This document shows positions 37,921-56,624 of a stretch of 64,000 nt of DNA, one piece after another (within the stretch, counting starts at the first letter, position 1; every line of letters starts with the position of its first letter). This DNA is from Bradyrhizobium japonicum USDA 6 (GTDB taxonomy: Bacteria; Pseudomonadota; Alphaproteobacteria; Rhizobiales; Xanthobacteraceae). Under the pieces are notes generated by a model. The model was not told where the DNA came from. It searched no databases and saw only the letters and a program-made list of their open reading frames with translations. The stretch lies in assembly GCF_000284375.1 (NCBI RefSeq), contig NC_017249.1, positions 2,210,001-2,274,000 on the forward strand, written 5' to 3'. The translations under genes and the position numbers were made by a program.

Positions 37921-37963
37921 TGGTGGGCGCACATCGGTCGAACCTTGGACCTCTCGCGTGTCA
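37921..37963 (-). other. tRNA 3'-end remnant, copy B
   Basis: The plus strand reads TGGTGGGCGCACA..TCGAACCTTGGACCTCTCG, complementary to a tRNA 3' half, with several changes that break the T-stem. It is 259 bases from the better copy C. The gap 37868-38479 holds no gene, only these remnants and a repeat at 38075. Confidence 0.55.
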
Positions 37964-38074
37964 AGGCGGCTCGGTGGTGCGGGCCTCTCCTTGGATGATG
38001 CCATCATGCCCGTGTGTTGCCCGACGGAGCAAGCGAATTCGGAAAAGGCGCAACCCATTGATCCGACTGATGTC

Positions 38075-38100: not shown

Positions 38101-38179
38101 ACTTTTTTTGATCAGACGGCCCCGACAGCCGTCAGGCCGGGGTGATCGTCCGCAACCAGTATGGCTTGGGAAGATGGAT

Positions 38180-38224
38180 GGTGGGCGCACAAGGGATCGA
38201 ACCTTGGACCTCTCCCGTGTGAAC
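38180..38224 (-). other. tRNA 3'-end remnant, copy C (probable attachment site of the adjacent integrase)
   Basis: The complement gives TTCACACGGGAG, GGTCCAAGGTTCGATC and CCTTGTGCGCCCACCA, a full T-arm with a perfect CAAGG/CCTTG stem and an ACCA end. The anticodon loop would read CAC (valine-type). The expected 5' stem is missing, so only about 45 bases of the tRNA remain. Its place about 250 bases before an integrase gene fits an att site. Confidence 0.65.
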
Positions 38225-38479
38225 CACAATCCGTAGACCCGAGCTAACCAAATCCGGCCATAGTTGAGGTGTAAAAACTCCTTAAATTAATGAGAGTTAT
38301 GGCCTACTACGGCTATAAGAGCCCATACCTGACCTTACTACATTTTGTATGCCCCCGTTGTGCCCGCCGCGGATATTCCCTTGGGGCACACAAACGGGGG
38401 AGGTCTGAGACCCGGTTCTGTTCGAGGCTCACCGCCCTTCTTGCGGGGCACACTGGGGCACAGAGAGAGGGAAGGAATC

Positions 38480-39811
38480 ATGACGGAGCCGGCCAACCAG
38501 CTGACACTCACCGATGCGGTGATCCGCAACGCAACGCTGCCGCCGGGTAAGGCGCAGCATTATCTCCACGACGACAAGCTGCCCGGCCTCGCCTTGCGCA
38601 TGCGCGCCACCGGCGGCCGGACCTGGGTCTACCTCTTCACCAAGCCGGGGGTGAGGGGGACCCAGCGCAAGACCCTCGGCGCGTGGCCCAAATATAATGA
38701 GAAGGCCGCCCGCAAGGCCGCCACCATCGCCGCAGGCGAAGTCGTCAAGGGCTTGGACCCGAACGACGCGAAGCGCGAGGCGAGGCGGCAACAGGCAGCC
38801 GAGAAGCAGCGCACCACGCTCGCGACCCTCATTGTTGAAGATGGTCCTTACCAGACGTCTATGACCGAACGTCAAGTCGTCAACTGGAAGCCAGCAATGT
38901 CGGCGCTGCGGCGCGGGCTCAAGGATCACGCCGAGAGCGGCGTGGGGGACCTGACGCGACGGCAGATCATGGCTGCGGTCGATAAGATTGCCAAGACCGG
39001 CAAGCGTGGTGCAGCCAAGGACTTGCGCAAGCACGTGCATACTTTGCTCGAATGGTGCGTCGGTGAGGGCTATGTCGAGCACAACGTGCTCGCCGGCTAT
39101 CGCGCGCCCAAGGAAACCCGCGCGCAAAGGGTCGGACGCCGAACGAAGGGCCGCGCGCTGACCGATGAGGAAATCATCAAAGTCTGGGATGCATCCGGCA
39201 AGCTCGGGGCTTTTGGTCTCCTGGCTCGCATGTGCCTGCTCGGTGGCCCGCGCCGCAGCGAGCCTACCATGATCGAGTGGCGAAAGCACATCATGGATGA
39301 CCGTATCACCTTCGATGCGGCGTGGACCAAGATGGGCCTGCACCACGACGTGCCGCGCACCCACCTCGCAAACGAGGTGCTCGCGGCCGCCAAACACTTC
39401 CAGCGCGCAACGTCCGACTATGTCTTCCCGTCACCAAAGACCGGCGGCCAGATGTCCGGGTTCACCAAGATGGTCAACCGCCTGGTCAAGGAAGCGGGTG
39501 TTGCCAAGTTTACCATGCATGACCTAAGGCGCAGCTTACGAACCGTCATGTCTCGCTGCGGCTACGACAACGAAATCCAGCGGCTGTGTGTCGGGCAAAG
39601 GCCAAGCGGAATCGATCAGGTCTACAATCACGACGAACAGTGGATCATCCGCAAAATGGCGTTCGAAGCGGCTCACGACTACATTGCGGAGTTGGTCGGC
39701 GCGAAACGGGTCGGCAAAATCGTGCGCCTGCAGCGGACGAATCCGCTTGACCCGATCAAGGCCGAGCTCCTCGGCCGTCTCCGTGAGCATTATGCGGCTG
39801 AGGCATCTTAG
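38480..39811 (+). CDS. Tyrosine-type recombinase/integrase with N-terminal arm-binding domain
   Basis: From ATG 38480, after GAAGGAA, the protein has 443 residues. The N-terminal DUF4102-like arm-DNA-binding region has PGLALRMRATGGRTWVYL and KTLGAWP. The core-binding part lies at about 120-220. Catalytic residues include the first arginine in GGPRRSEPTMIEW, H-D-L-R-R and the tyrosine in QVYNHDE. The usual second His/Trp before the Tyr reads Q (VGQRPSG). Its 3' end overlaps a convergent excisionase-like gene. Confidence 0.88.
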   Translation: MTEPANQLTLTDAVIRNATLPPGKAQHYLHDDKLPGLALRMRATGGRTWVYLFTKPGVRGTQRKTLGAWPKYNEKAARKAATIAAGEVVKGLDPNDAKREARRQQAAEKQRTTLATLIVEDGPYQTSMTERQVVNWKPAMSALRRGLKDHAESGVGDLTRRQIMAAVDKIAKTGKRGAAKDLRKHVHTLLEWCVGEGYVEHNVLAGYRAPKETRAQRVGRRTKGRALTDEEIIKVWDASGKLGAFGLLARMCLLGGPRRSEPTMIEWRKHIMDDRITFDAAWTKMGLHHDVPRTHLANEVLAAAKHFQRATSDYVFPSPKTGGQMSGFTKMVNRLVKEAGVAKFTMHDLRRSLRTVMSRCGYDNEIQRLCVGQRPSGIDQVYNHDEQWIIRKMAFEAAHDYIAELVGAKRVGKIVRLQRTNPLDPIKAELLGRLREHYAAEAS

Positions 39812-40436: not shown

Positions 40437-41625
40437 ATGATGGCCAGGCACGAGCTTCTAGGTGGTCTGATTCAGGTATACCGGCGAAACGGCCGGTATT
40501 GGCACTGTTCGGCCTCCATCGACGGCCGCCAACACCGCAGCACGACCGGAGAGGAAGATCTCTCCCTCGCCAAGCAGTTTGCGGAGGACTCGTTTATCGG
40601 TCTTCGTGGGAAGGCGCGGGAGGGGCTGTTGGTGAATGAGAAGACCTTTCGCCAAGCCGCTGACCAATTCCTGAAAGAGTATGAGGTGATCACCGAGGGC
40701 CAGCGCAGCGAGCGCTGGGTCCAGGGTTACGAGATCAGGCTTCGCCTGCACCTGTTGCCGTTCTTCAGGCAAGGTGCAGGAATATCGCCTACACCGGATC
40801 GCAACGTCTAAGACCGGCAAGGCGCCCGCGCGCAGCACTATCCACGACGAGGTCGTGACGTTGCGGCAGGTGTTGAAGACTGCCATTCGCCATGAATGGC
40901 TCGCGCACCTGCCGGACTTCTCTCCTCCTTATAAGACTTCGGGGAAGGTGGTGCATCGGCCGTGGTTCAGCCCCGAGGAATACAAGCAGCTCTACGAAAC
41001 CACGCGGGCGCACGCGAAGGCCAGCCAGATCCACCACCGTTGGAGTGCCGAGCAATTGCATGATTACGTCCTGTTCTTGGCCAACACCGGCTTGCGGCCG
41101 GATGAGGCCAAGAACCTCCAGCATCGCGACGTGACCATTGTTGAGGACGAACGTAGCGGCGAGCGCATCCTGGAAATCGAGGTGCGCGGCAAGCGGGGCG
41201 TCGGCTACTGCAAGAGCATGCCGAGCGCGGTGCGACCCCTATGAGCGGCTGCTAGGCCGCGCGAAATACGTGAAGCAGGGCAGAGCGCGGGTGCTGGCGA
41301 AGCTGCCGCCCTCTAACGAGCCGCCGCAGTTGCCCAAGCCGACCGACCACGTGTTTCCGGGCAATCACATCAAGATGTTCAATGCCCTGCTTGATAGGAG
41401 CGAGTTGAAGCTGGATCGGGATGGCAATCGGCGGACCGCATACAGCCTGCGGCATACCTACATCTGCATGCGCCTGATGGAAGGGGCGGACAGCTACTAG
41501 ATAGCGAAGAACTGCCGAACCTCAGTGGAGATGATCGAGAAGTTCTATGCGGCGCACATCAAGAACAGGCTCGATGCTTCCGCCATCAATGTGCGTCAGG
41601 CCAAGCCCGCTCCTCGCAGGCAGTT
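40437..41625 (+). pseudogene. Decayed tyrosine integrase
   Basis: The gene begins at ATG 40437 after GGAGG and reads as an integrase N terminus (GLIQVYRRNGRYWHCSASIDG). It switches frame near 40770 with loss of some residues and continues (STIHDEVVTLRQVLKTAIRH, NTGLRPDEAKNL). A second frame change follows at a run of four C at 41234-41237. The third part has SLRHTYICMRLM, then an in-frame TAG at 41498 where CAG is expected. The rest (SVEMIEKFYAAHIKN) holds the catalytic tyrosine. It cannot make a full protein. Confidence 0.88.
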
Positions 41626-41974: not shown

Positions 41975-42196
41975 GCCGGAGGCGCATTCATGAACGTCGT
42001 CCTCAAGCCGGGTACGCGTTGACGATAGATCTCCGACATATTCATCCGAAGTCGATGGCAGCAGCGCGACGCCTGCCGCATTCAGGCGGTTGCCTCAGCT
42101 TCCGGCAGCAGGAGCCAAGCTCAAGACGATTGCTCAGAAAACCGCCTCTGTGCAAGACAATGGGTCCCTGTACGCGCAATAAGAGGAAACCGCGCT

Positions 42197-42640
42197 GTGA
42201 CACTCTCTCTTGACGGCGAAATTCGAGACGGACGGCATTACATGCAGGTCCGCGTCTATTTCGAAGATACCGATTCCGGCCAGATTGTTTATCACGCGAA
42301 TTTTTTGCGTTTCATGGAACGTGGCAGAACGAATTACTTGCGCCTGCTCGGCACCAATCAGCAAGCGCTGCTCGAGGAAACGCGGAACGATGCGCCGGGC
42401 TTCGCCTTCGTTGTCCGTTCGATGACAATCGATTTTCTAAAACCGGCAGTCTTGGACGACCTGCTTGACATTGTCACGGTCCCGCAAGAGGTGAGAGGCG
42501 CGTCGATTGCCTTGCTGCAGGAGTGCAGGCGCGGGGGTGATCTCTTGGTCTCGGCGCGTGTACGGGTCGCGTTTATCTCAGGCGGAAAAGCGCAGCGCAT
42601 CCCAAAGGCTCTGAGGCTTGCTATGGAAGAGCACAGATAA
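42197..42640 (+). CDS. ybgC: YbgC-like acyl-CoA thioesterase, intact, island-borne copy
   Basis: The 147-residue hot-dog thioesterase starts at GTG 42197 with AGAGGA upstream. The YbgC signature is VRVYFEDTDSGQIVYHANFLRFMERGR, with catalytic D in EDTD. Base composition is more AT-rich than the surrounding core genes. A truncated native copy lies in inverted orientation at 42722-42806, and the Tol genes normally found next to ybgC are absent. It may supply the ybgC function lost by the native gene. Confidence 0.9.
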   Translation: MTLSLDGEIRDGRHYMQVRVYFEDTDSGQIVYHANFLRFMERGRTNYLRLLGTNQQALLEETRNDAPGFAFVVRSMTIDFLKPAVLDDLLDIVTVPQEVRGASIALLQECRRGGDLLVSARVRVAFISGGKAQRIPKALRLAMEEHR

Positions 42641-42721
42641 ATCTGCCTTTCGTTCACGCTTTAACGCTCCAGCGACCCAATGAAATCAATGCGTTGGCCT
42701 TTTGTTGCGATATCGTCAAGT

Positions 42722-42806
42722 CAGAGAAGTCCGTGTCCTCGTAGTAGACGCGGACCTGCATGTGATGGCGGCCGTCGCGGATCTCGCCGTCGAGATGGGC
42801 TGTCAC
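42722..42806 (-). pseudogene. ybgC: Native ybgC, 5' fragment only (about 28 codons)
   Basis: Read from GTG 42806 on the minus strand, it begins like YbgC (DGEIRDGRHH, then MQVRVYYEDTDFS) and the homology stops abruptly after S, where G-I-V-Y-H is expected. It lies 70 bases downstream of the phosphoesterase stop on the same strand as ruvCAB. Its DNA differs from the intact copy at about one base in five, so it is not a recent duplicate. Confidence 0.85.
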
Positions 42807-42875
42807 GTCGCGAGCCTCTTTGCTTTTTGCAACCGGCCCGTTTTGCGCAAAAACAGCCGGCTGCGCAAGCGCAGG

Positions 42876-43941: not shown

Positions 43942-45000
43942 TCAGTCGTCGCTCTCGTCCGTGCCGAACAGGCCGAACTGTGCCGCGGCATCGCGCGAGG
44001 GCTCGGCGATGCCGAGATGGCGGAAGGCGTGCGAGGTGAGCAGGCGGCCGCGCGGGGTGCGCTGGAGATAGCCGCACTGAATGAGATAAGGCTCGATGAT
44101 GTCCTCGATCGCATCGCGCGGCTCGGACAAAGCGGCAGCCATCGTCTCGACGCCGACCGGGCCGCCGCCATAGTTCTGCGCGATGGTCGTGAGGTAGCGG
44201 CGGTCCATGGCATCGAGGCCGGCGGCGTCGACCTCGAGCGCGCTCAGCGCGTGGTCGGCGATCTTGCGGTCGATCGAGGCGGCATCGGCGGCGGAGGCGA
44301 AATCGCGCACGCGGCGCAGCAGGCGGCCGGCGATGCGCGGCGTGCCACGGGCGCGGCGCGCGATCTCGTTGGCACCGTCGGCGCTCATACCGACATTGAG
44401 CACGCGCGCGCCGCGGGTGACGATGCTTTCCAGCTCTTCGATCGTATAGAAGTTGAGCCGGACCGGGATGCCGAAGCGATCGCGCAAGGGATTGGTGAGC
44501 AGGCCAGCGCGTGTGGTGGCGCCGACGAGCGTGAATTTCGACAGCTCGATCTTCACCGAGCGTGCCGCCGGGCCCTCGCCGATGATCAGGTCGAGTTGAA
44601 AGTCCTCCATCGCGGGATAGAGCACCTCTTCCACCGCCGGGCTCAGGCGATGGATCTCGTCGATGAAGAGCACGTCGCGCTCTTCGAGGTTGGTGAGGAG
44701 TGCGGCGAGATCGCCAGCCTTCGCGATCACCGGACCCGAGGTGGCGCGAAAGCCGACGCCGAGCTCCTTGGCGACGATCTGCGCCAGCGTGGTCTTGCCG
44801 AGGCCGGGGGGGCCTACGAACAGCACGTGATCGAGCGCCTCGCCGCGCTTGCGTGCCGCCTCGATGAAGATCGAGAGGTTCTTGCGCGCCTGCTGCTGGC
44901 CGACGAAGTCGGACAGCGATTGCGGACGCAGCGCGGTGTCGCCGACATCGTCGCTGCGGCGCTCGGGCGAGACCATGCGGTTGGCCTTGGGGTCGCTCAC
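43942..45000 (-). CDS. ruvB: Holliday junction branch migration helicase RuvB
   Basis: The 352-residue AAA+ ATPase shows Walker [11 protein letters not shown], Walker B LFIDEIHR, sensor 1 GATTRAG, and the arginine-finger region GPAARS. A C-terminal winged helix ([18 protein letters not shown]) binds DNA. Its start overlaps the ruvA stop by four bases. It works with RuvA and RuvC on Holliday junctions. Confidence 0.98.
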
Positions 45001-45614
45001 TTCGCGAGCTCCTTGAGGCCGAGGCGAATGAGCTGTGCGGTCTCGGCATGCTCACCCGCGCTACGCGATGCCGATGCGATGGCCGCGGCGGCCTGCGGCT
45101 GGCCGTAACCGAGATTGACGAGCGCCGAGATCGCATCTGCCACCGGGCGCGGCGCGCGCTGGTCGTCGACGGCGCCGGCGAGATGCACGACGGCGGGATC
45201 GACATTGGCGAAGGCCGGCGCCTTGTCCTTCAATTCGGTGACGATGCGCTCGGCCACCTTGGGGCCGACACCGGGCGTACGCGCCACCGCGGCCTTGTCA
45301 CGGAGCGCAATGGCGTTGGCGAGATCGGAAGGCGCCAGCGTGCCGAGCACGGCGAGCGCGACCTTGGCGCCGACGCCCTGCACGGTCTGGAGCAGGCGAA
45401 ACCATTCGCGCTCCTGGTCGGTGCGGAAGCCGAACAGCTTGATCTGGTCCTCGCGGACATAGGTCTCGATCGACAGCACCGCGACCTCGCCGGGCGCCGG
45501 CAGATGCTGAAGCGTGCGCGCCGAGCAATGCACCTGATAGCCGACGCCGCCGACGTCGAGGAGGACATAATCCTCGCCGTAGGAATCGATCAGGCCCTTG
45601 AGCTTGCCGATCAT
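44997..45614 (-). CDS. ruvA: Holliday junction DNA helicase RuvA
   Basis: The 205-residue protein starts [31 protein letters not shown], the RuvA OB-fold. Helix-hairpin-helix motifs follow ([13 protein letters not shown] and [13 protein letters not shown]), and a C-terminal RuvB-contact domain ([16 protein letters not shown]). Both its ends overlap neighbouring ruv genes as ATGA. Confidence 0.98.
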
Positions 45615-46138
45615 AAGCCCGCCACCTTCAGCCTGAGTGCCGTGCTCTGGCGGTGATGGGCGTGGGTGATGGCGATGGCGAGCGCGTCGGCGGCGTCCGA
45701 GGACGGCGGCTCGGCTTTCGGCAGCAAAATCTTCAGCATCATCGCGATCTGGTGCTTGTCGGCGTGGCCGGCGCCGACCACCGTCTTCTTGACCTGGTTC
45801 GGCGCGTATTCGGCGACGGTAATGCCGAACATCGCGGGCGCCAGCATGGCGACGCCGCGGGCCTGACCGAGCTTCAGCGTCGCGACGCCGTCCTTGTTCA
45901 CAAAGGTCTGCTCGACCGCGGCTTCCATCGGCTTGTGACCGGACAGGACGGCGGCAAGCCCCTCATGGATCGCGAGCAGCCGGCTCGCCAGCGGTAAATC
46001 GTCCGGCGGTTCCACCGAGCCGCAGGCGACGTAGATCAAACGATTGCCCTCGGCCTCAATCACGCCCCAGCCGGTGCGGCGCAGGCCGGGGTCGATGCCG
46101 ATGATGCGAACGGGGCCACGAATCGGGAGCGCAGTCAT
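45611..46138 (-). CDS. ruvC: Holliday junction endonuclease RuvC
   Basis: The 175-residue protein shows [18 protein letters not shown] with the first catalytic Asp, [20 protein letters not shown] with the glutamate region, and [19 protein letters not shown] with the final Asp pair. It is the first gene of the ruvCAB operon here. Confidence 0.98.
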
Positions 46139-55252: not shown

Positions 55253-55291
55253 GTGTCGCCGCGAACACCACTGCACCTTCTCCCCTTGTGG

Positions 55292-56412
55292 GGCTGTTGC
55301 GTAATTCGTCAATTGTGATTCCCTAGGGCAAAGCCTTGGAGGGTAGCGATGGCGGTCAAGCGGACGGGACAGCCGAGCTTTGTGGAAGCGCTGATGCCGA
55401 AGGGGGCCGGCGCCAATGCGGCGCTGGATCGGCTGGCTGGCCTGGTCAAGTGGTACCGGTTCGAGAAGCTGATCGGCCATTTGCGGGATGAAGGGAGCCC
55501 CGGTCGACCAGGCTATCCGGTGTTGGTGCTGTTTCGTGCTGTGCTGTTGCAGTCGCTGTATGGTCTTTCGGAGCGCGAACTCGAGGAAGCGCTGGGCGAC
55601 CGGTTGTCGTTCAAGCGCTTCGTCGGTTTGAGCCTTGAGGATGCGACGCCCGACCACACGGTCCTGAACCGCTTCCGGAACCAGCTCGTTGAACAGGGCC
55701 TGCTGGAGAAGCTGTTTGGCGAATTGGATCGTCAGCTTGAGAATGCTGGCGTGATCCTCAAGCGCGGCACGATGCTGGATGCGACCTTGATCCAGGCAGT
55801 CTCGGCTCCGCCCAAGGAGGATCGCCCCTCAAACGACCCTGATGCCCGGTTTGCCAAACGGCAGGGCAAAAGCGGCTCGACCTTCGGTTACAAGGCCCAT
55901 GTGGGTGTGGACGAAGGATCCGGCTTGATCCGCGCGGTGCTGACCACACCCGCTAACGTCAACGATACGACACCTGCGGACGCTTTGATCCGGGGCGATG
56001 AAGCTGCGGTGTGGGCCGATGCGGCTTACGACACCCATGCCCGACGGGCCCGGCTGAAGGCGGAGGGCAAGAAACCCCGCATCGCTCGTCGGCCCAACAG
56101 ACATCATCCGGAACTGCCGCCCAGGCTCAAACGCTACAACCTCCTCATCGCGCGCCGCCGAGCCCAGGTCGAGACCACCTTCGCTACTCTCAAACGCCGC
56201 ATGCGGCTGACCTGCATCCGCTACGTCGGTCTGATCAAGGCGACCGGGCAAGTCGTGCTCGCCGCGATCGCCTTCAACATGAGGCGGTGGGCCACAATCG
56301 CCGCGTGAGCCACCCTCCGAGGGCGACAACTACAGATCTTGGCAGGCAATTGCCGGGACCAAGGCCTTCGTTCCTGACGTCTTCAGCCTCAAGAGCTGAT
56401 AACGCAACAGGC
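55292..56412 (+). mobile_element. IS5-family insertion sequence, about 1.12 kb
   Basis: The ends carry inverted repeats with core CTGTTGCGT (left GGCTGTTGCGTAAT, right inverted as GGCCTGTTGCGTTAT). One transposase fills the element. No certain target duplication could be read, so the outer ends are approximate to a few bases. The left and right flanks belong to one repeat class. Confidence 0.82.
55349..56308 (+). CDS. IS5-family transposase
   Basis: The 319-residue DDE transposase starts at an ATG after GGAGGGTAG. An N-terminal DUF772-like domain (YPVLVLFRAVLLQSLYGLSERELEE) precedes the catalytic acids D144 (MLDATLIQA), D224 (WADAAYD) and E275 (QVETTFATLKRR). The YGLSERELE and TVLNRFRNQL motifs are family marks. 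The frame is intact. A stretch of about 100 bases after the stop completes the element. Confidence 0.93.
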   Translation: MAVKRTGQPSFVEALMPKGAGANAALDRLAGLVKWYRFEKLIGHLRDEGSPGRPGYPVLVLFRAVLLQSLYGLSERELEEALGDRLSFKRFVGLSLEDATPDHTVLNRFRNQLVEQGLLEKLFGELDRQLENAGVILKRGTMLDATLIQAVSAPPKEDRPSNDPDARFAKRQGKSGSTFGYKAHVGVDEGSGLIRAVLTTPANVNDTTPADALIRGDEAAVWADAAYDTHARRARLKAEGKKPRIARRPNRHHPELPPRLKRYNLLIARRRAQVETTFATLKRRMRLTCIRYVGLIKATGQVVLAAIAFNMRRWATIAA

Positions 56413-56624
56413 CCCCTGCGGGAGAGGGTGGCTCGGCGGCGAGACGGGTGAGGGGTATCTCTCTGCGAGTCCACTCTCACATGAGTGCGCCGACAGAGGC
56501 CCCTCATCCGGCGCCATAGCCGAAGCTTCGCTTCGGCGTTCCTAAGAACGGCGGCCGAAGGCCGCCTATGCCACCTTCTCCGACAAGGGGAGAAGGGCAG
56601 AGCCTGTGCGGTGAGCGCCGCGGA

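Follow-up and report, generated by a model that had tools for sequence, protein, structure and literature searches.

Swapped attachment halves at ybgC in the bipartite tRNA-Val symbiosis element of Bradyrhizobium japonicum USDA 6 and a putative reversed recombination by its serine integrase

The 64,000-nucleotide stretch of the Bradyrhizobium japonicum USDA 6 genome analyzed here (the window, C1:2,210,001-2,274,000 of the single 9,207,384-bp chromosome, C1) contains, at ybgC, an attachment site of the known bipartite tRNA-Val symbiosis integrative and conjugative element (ICE). The native ybgC is split at this site, and in USDA 6 its two halves are paired the opposite way from those of the other carriers examined: the attachment arm next to a second, element-borne ybgC (hereafter the replacement gene) adjoins the native 5' half, and the arm next to the integrase IntY adjoins the native 3' half. 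These swapped halves are the new observation of this work; the pairing that we call canonical, IntY arm with 5' half and replacement arm with 3' half, is the majority state found here and not a published criterion. In the history that we favor, and regard as likely, an inversion between two insertion sequence (IS) copies was followed by integration at tRNA-Val and then by a reversed, core-mismatched recombination mediated by IntY, the reverse joining having probably occurred because the usual one would have torn the chromosome in two. We lean, with less assurance, towards the mechanistic reading that a large serine integrase joined the attachment sites of element and chromosome (attP and attB) in an orientation forbidden by their cores, the IS inversion having made the normal reaction lethal, so that the polarity rule was bypassed by selection and the element became locked. 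If true, this would provide a base-level account of why the symbiosis island of USDA 6 is split and apparently stuck, and a naturally occurring exception on which to test the rule that a 2-bp core alone sets the polarity of serine integrases.

A search of the whole genome with the intact ybgC yielded three matches, namely the gene itself, the adjoining 5' fragment and, on the plus strand near C1:8,614 kb, a native-type 3' part; no full-length native ybgC was found. The earlier note on this DNA, which had described the cut gene, asked where its 3' part and any complete native copy might lie; the former is now placed and the latter did not appear among the three matches. The matching segments are C1:2252711-2252806 on the minus strand and C1:8613997-8614413 on the plus strand, the latter match taking in some IntY sequence; the native 3' half begins at C1:8,614,047, which is 6.36 Mb away by coordinate and 2.85 Mb by the short way, and is joined in frame to IntY, a recombinase of about 561 residues. 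IntY (C1:8612359-8614041) displays resolvase, recombinase and zinc-ribbon domains, all above the Pfam cut-off, and is thus a large serine integrase; likewise, searches of structure databases by sequence returned serine-integrase-like relatives, and YbgC-like ones for the ybgC products. A simple insertion of one island was rejected, as the native halves lie on opposite strands and megabases apart. As a separate observation, IntY and the final 122 residues of native YbgC share one reading frame across the reversed junction, which yields a 685-residue integrase-thioesterase open reading frame (ORF) at C1:8612359-8614416 (L013:12360-14417; L and G numbers denote the loci and genomes compared).

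Within the window, the ORFs (42197-42640 on the plus strand and a 5' fragment from 42806 on the minus strand) bear out what the earlier note had described, a cut native ybgC ending abruptly near EDTDFS beside an intact copy in inverted orientation. Two of its measures need correction: the native part comprises not 28 codons but 26 plus two bases of codon 27, the last base of that codon and the serine of EDTDFS being encoded by the element arm and not by native DNA, and the distance from the stop of the intact gene to native sequence is 86 bp rather than 80. The 19 identical bases that it had observed in inverted orientation are present inside an inverted repeat of 83 nt (42191-42273 and 42730-42812, 78% complementary), which is the homologous 5' ends of the two ybgC genes and not an attachment site. 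As a candidate attachment core the 19 bases were rejected, since they are conserved coding sequence and the arm lies 3' of the replacement gene.

The bases at the crossover carry the main evidence. In relatives, the uninterrupted ybgC typically reads GGACAC(G/C)GA(C/T)-TT-(C/T)TC, the central TT being the first two bases of Phe27, and this core is TT in all 25 intact native-type genes read (two of them probably from the same strain). From the two ends of the element, attP would consist of two identical 13-bp inverted arms around a 2-bp core (AA/TT) common to attB, with IntV, the tyrosine integrase of the window, acting at the 3' end of tRNA-Val and IntY at the TT core in codon 27 of ybgC. We collected 66 distinct sequences downstream of replacement-type genes; 20 of them, without a recognizable arm, were excluded, and the remaining 46 represent 45 distinct junctions: 25 display TT followed by the native 3' half, 18 display TT followed by other sequence, one displays GA and other sequence after a degenerate arm, and one, that of USDA 6 alone, displays AA followed by the native 5' half. 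At the other end of the element, the native 5' half is followed by TT and an IntY-type arm, next to which a homologue of IntY lies, in 13 of 15 other loci (the exceptions being L203 and L210). In USDA 6 the IntY arm (L002) is followed by AA and then by the native 3' half, and the 5'-half junction reads TT on the ybgC sense strand. The 25 junctions between replacement arm and native 3' half and those 13 of 15 loci are consistent with an orientation set by core matching; the junctions of USDA 6 break with it. The inverted orientation described in the earlier note is not usual for the element: in the 25 other readable distinct junctions the replacement gene and the native 3' half that follows it lie on one and the same strand.

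A canonical integration followed by homologous recombination between the 13-bp inverted arms, flipping the halves without the integrase, could be imagined given that the arms are identical over their 13 bp, which is short for homologous recombination. Such an event should leave each core attached to its native half, so that TT would be expected between the IntY arm and the 3' half, where AA is observed; two further substitutions would be required, and we consider this course of events improbable. A TT core at both junctions, the expectation under arm recombination, was rejected on the same AA. An ancestral attB with an AA core was also rejected, as a matched reaction would then give AA twice on the ybgC sense strand, and the 5' junction reads TT, as do all 25 intact genes read. 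The presence of one core from each parent site appears to fit staggered cutting and mismatched rejoining by IntY better than recombination between the arms, because in the latter case the IntY side would have kept TT.

Two junction classes merit mention here in their own right. In L083 (B. altum Pear77), at position 2481 on the minus strand, an IntY arm, AA and a replacement arm follow one another as in an unrecombined attP, and the replacement ybgC is interrupted; this arrangement is possibly an intermediate or a tandem configuration. The 18 distinct replacement-arm junctions in which TT is followed by sequence unlike native ybgC (L029, L048, L056 and L070, among others) are candidates for other targets, tandem elements or scars.

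The proposed lethality of the normal reaction is based on the surroundings of ybgC. Compared with G213, a relative with an uninterrupted ybgC, a segment of about 14 kb comprising a DUF1348-type gene, ybgC and the ruv genes is flipped in USDA 6 relative to its neighbors; in G027, G087 and G025, in which ybgC is split by the ICE, each half keeps its G213 neighbors, the 3' half on the DUF1348-type side and the 5' half on the ruv side. An IS5-family copy lies at one breakpoint in the window and its partner, 97.3% identical over a 1239-bp alignment, lies at the other (C1:8615019-8616144). Their flanks are exchanged, TTGT to the left of the window copy corresponding to TTGT to the right of the distant copy, and TTGC and CTGC corresponding likewise with one mismatch, and both sites are empty in G213. 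These exchanged flanks and target duplications indicate that recombination between the two IS copies flipped the 14 kb. According to a symbolic model, the second step in a normal chromosome leads to an inversion if canonical and to a split chromosome if reversed; once the 14 kb are flipped, it is the canonical reaction that causes the split and the reversed one that causes an inversion. In the history that we favor, two IS5-family copies would thus have recombined, inverting about 14 kb around ybgC; the element would then have integrated at tRNA-Val; and a rare reversed, core-mismatched IntY recombination would have produced an inversion instead, this being the sole viable outcome and kept by selection. 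Since canonical recombination would split the flipped chromosome, only the reversed reaction would leave a viable cell, and the product should be locked in place, since excision would also need a mismatched core. IntY has the same sequence (100% identity) in USDA 6, G027 and G087, and the replacement protein is identical in USDA 6 and G027; the identity of IntY in USDA 6 and G027 implies that the integrase protein is not the difference.

Several considerations weigh against this history. The sites of USDA 6 resemble those of phage A118 and other large serine integrases in being short inverted repeats with a 2-bp core (PMC3556126; all papers cited here other than PMC9174649 are used in excerpt). 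Nevertheless, in the characterized enzymes orientation is set by the core alone, and recombination between wild-type sites with asymmetric cores is confined to the parallel alignment (PMC3556126), the two core bases having to pair in the products (also PMC4111918), unlike the USDA 6 junctions, which resemble an antiparallel product. A mismatch at both core bases should be strongly disfavored, and the reversed state was seen in one genome only among those read. To our knowledge such a reversed, core-mismatched reaction is unprecedented, and no report of a natural reversed integration was found in the result listings of the open-licence literature. The order of events is not fixed either: by the symbolic model and further reasoning, a reversed IntY reaction occurring first in a normal chromosome, which would give one circle with an origin and one without, followed by their re-fusion in the same cell through the IS copies, would end in an identical map, with the IS flanks exchanged in the same way. 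That course would demand that a single cell lineage undergo two rare events and that a circle lacking an origin survive, and we regard it as unlikely, albeit a shade less so than recombination between the arms. A mis-joining of the two attachment junctions during assembly, suggested by the restriction of the state to one genome, is very improbable, since the common repeat is merely 13 bp, the AA core on the IntY side does not follow from mis-joined canonical pieces, the exchange of IS flanks is independently consistent, and the related strain E109 is reported to be likewise anomalous (PMC9239051).

The large element spans 694 kb between tRNA-Val and IntY and holds IntY, nodA (8,093 kb) and nifH (8,325 kb), both inside 7.92-8.61 Mb (one gene of each kind was searched), and the small element occupies 4.5 kb of the window. 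The intact tRNA-Val(CAC) is found at C1:7919767-7919841 and its 3' remnant at C1:2248179. Accordingly, an intact tRNA gene with its remnant, a ybgC site, an integrase beside the attachment site of each element and symbiosis genes on the large one are all present, in agreement with the Bradyrhizobium tRNA-Val symbiosis ICE (Weisberg et al. 2022; PMC9239051, PMC9174649), in which tRNA-Val and ybgC sites, a large and a small element and a chromosome-scale inversion upon integration are described. In contrast to those accounts, USDA 6 displays ybgC halves megabases apart, swapped arms and a 14-kb IS-bounded inversion; neither the replacement ybgC nor the core bases are mentioned in the main text of PMC9174649 or in the excerpt of PMC9239051. 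The ICEs of USDA 6 and E109 have already been termed 'locked', for another reason (PMC9239051), and most chromosomes with incompatible attachment sites are held to be unable to accommodate a two-piece ICE 'barring an unusual event' (PMC9174649); the present case illustrates how such an ICE can have entered a chromosome with supposedly incompatible sites, and USDA 6 may represent such an event.

The same pieces had been delineated as symbiosis islands of USDA6T (Kaneko et al. 2011, PMC3927601), island A at 7,920-8,614 kb and island B at 2,248-2,252 kb, together with a 45-bp trnV remnant and the integrase BJ6T21770, and the matching coordinates identify the window piece with island B and the 694-kb piece with island A. 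In the excerpt of that report ybgC is mentioned 0 times and the split is put down to 'unknown large-scale genome rearrangements'. Likewise, a symbiosis island B of 4,160 bp bordered by an integrase gene and ybgC is known from the B. japonicum SEMIA 586 group (PMC11218460), where the excerpt describes neither the border ybgC as a second, element-type copy nor the cut native gene. The tripartite ICE of Mesorhizobium (Haskett et al. 2018, PMC5882170) is similar in consisting of several pieces with several recombinases and in that one order of excision splits the chromosome inviably; its integrases are tyrosine recombinases, unlike the second integrase of USDA 6. The suggestion of the earlier note, that an island destroyed its target gene and brought a replacement, is supported in that the native gene is split at an attachment site and the second copy belongs to a mobile clade, but the island is not local: the element comes in two pieces, of which the window shows one arm, the other ending at 8.614 Mb. 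A separate local island carrying a foreign ybgC and unrelated to the symbiosis island would agree with the lower G+C content and the inverted copies in the window; given that both the ybgC halves and the tRNA-Val halves pair with the 694-kb nod/nif segment, we find it hardly credible.

The sequence shows that the ICE breaks the native gene and carries, beside its IntY arm, a complete and diverged ybgC, which is presumably expressed. The product of this replacement narrowly passes the YbgC acyl-CoA thioesterase model TIGR02799 (142.1 bits, cut-off 141.35; 158.1 for the native protein of G213, to which it is 69% identical). The intact copy is indeed more AT-rich, as had been noted: 40 element-type copies have a mean G+C content of 0.558, as against 0.648 for 39 other homologues, most but not all of them native. 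It belongs to a separate, mobile clade. This element-type clade (41 rows; 99 in the Shimodaira-Hasegawa-like approximate likelihood ratio test, SH-aLRT) comprises 30 Bradyrhizobium, 5 Tardiphaga, 1 Afipia and 5 ungrouped sequences, and lies apart from the native Bradyrhizobium clade (24 rows, SH-aLRT 97) in a quick tree that is based on 144 columns and leaves 42 of its 72 inner branches unresolved. The ratio of nonsynonymous to synonymous substitution rates (dN/dS) of the replacement ybgC was 0.07-0.17, with a median of 0.11, in 11 pairs with relatives.

In order to relate the state of the element copy to that of the native gene, 57 genomes were compared from among the ybgC matches listed; they come from hand-chosen, not random, sets (72 + 41: complete genomes, and carriers or genomes with several matches), with G263, which has a short second-copy fragment, excluded from the group with an intact native gene, and G165, G216 and G257, with high or multiple matches, left outside. 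A full-length open element-type copy was found in 40 of 41 genomes with a split native gene, compared with one (G250) of the 16 in which the native gene is intact (Fisher p = 1.1e-11, computed without correction for kinship); among the latter the element-type copy is shortened, partial or carries an in-frame deletion in four (G011, G091, G256 and G038) and is broken or truncated in 11. The broken copies are not independent, as a break near residue 68-70 is common to those of G004, G092, G161, G207 and G162, and a stop near residue 101 to those of G182 and G191. Such a pattern would be expected if the element copy matters only once the native gene is lost, and because its integrity tracks that loss the comparison supports the reading that this ICE carries a complete replacement of the gene broken by its integration. 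Two genomes speak against it: G024, whose native gene is split and for which the matches listed include no element-type copy, and G250, in which both copies are intact.

In the Tardiphaga loci L043, L051, L052 and L055, a chromosomal DUF1348-type gene directly follows the element-type ybgC (by eye) and no separate native 3' half is seen; in L051 a native-like ybgC 5' fragment lies 4.7 kb upstream of the element-type copy. It looks as if in these loci the element copy took the native place, or the family arose in such a lineage.

The absence of Tol genes beside ybgC, taken in the earlier note as a sign of an island, carries no weight. The tolQ gene of USDA 6, above its family cut-off, is located at C1:2,328,087, 75 kb from ybgC and not adjoining it, and no tolQ was found beside the uninterrupted ybgC of G213 in a 6-kb stretch whose ORFs were read by eye, so that the arrangement looks normal for the genus on the one uninterrupted relative inspected. 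Adjacency to tol-pal, a criterion for YbgC that the present locus lacks, is not decisive for membership of TIGR02799.

Table 1. Features of the window discussed in the text (position 1 is the first base of the window)
Feature	Position	Strand	Remarks
Second, decayed tRNA-Val 3' end	37922..37964	-	89%; outside the element
attV remnant, 45-bp 3' end of tRNA-Val(CAC), left end of small element	38179..38223	-	100% identity to intact tRNA end
IntV, tyrosine integrase adjoining attV	38345..39811	+	Pfam Arm-DNA-bind_3 and Phage_integrase above cut-off
Probable broken second tyrosine integrase, three overlapping short ORFs	40437..41500	+	inferred assignment
Element-borne replacement ybgC	42197..42640	+	147 aa, GTG start; TIGR02799, separate clade, dN/dS
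IntY attachment arm, replacement-gene side, CGTCAAGTCAGAG	42714..42726	+	same 13 bp on IntY side at C1:8614032-8614044
Crossover dinucleotide	42727..42728	+	AA here; TT in 43/45 distinct junctions of replacement arm
Native ybgC 5' part	42727..42806	-	80 bases = 26 codons + two core bases of codon 27
Host flank ruvB, ruvA, ruvC	43942..46138	-	names by inspection; within flipped 14-kb segment
IS5-family insertion sequence at one inversion breakpoint	55290..56415	+	1,126 bp; family named from partner copy

Among the remaining features, a copy of IntV with 100% identity is also found near the replacement ybgC in L019. In the probable second integrase, a weak Phage_integrase match, below cut-off, was obtained for the middle ORF only, the other two ORFs being without a match. 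Finally, in G263, G214, G194, G197 and G076 ybgC is intact, and tRNA-Val and its partial copy lie on opposite strands, megabases apart; these are perhaps two-piece elements with a different second site.
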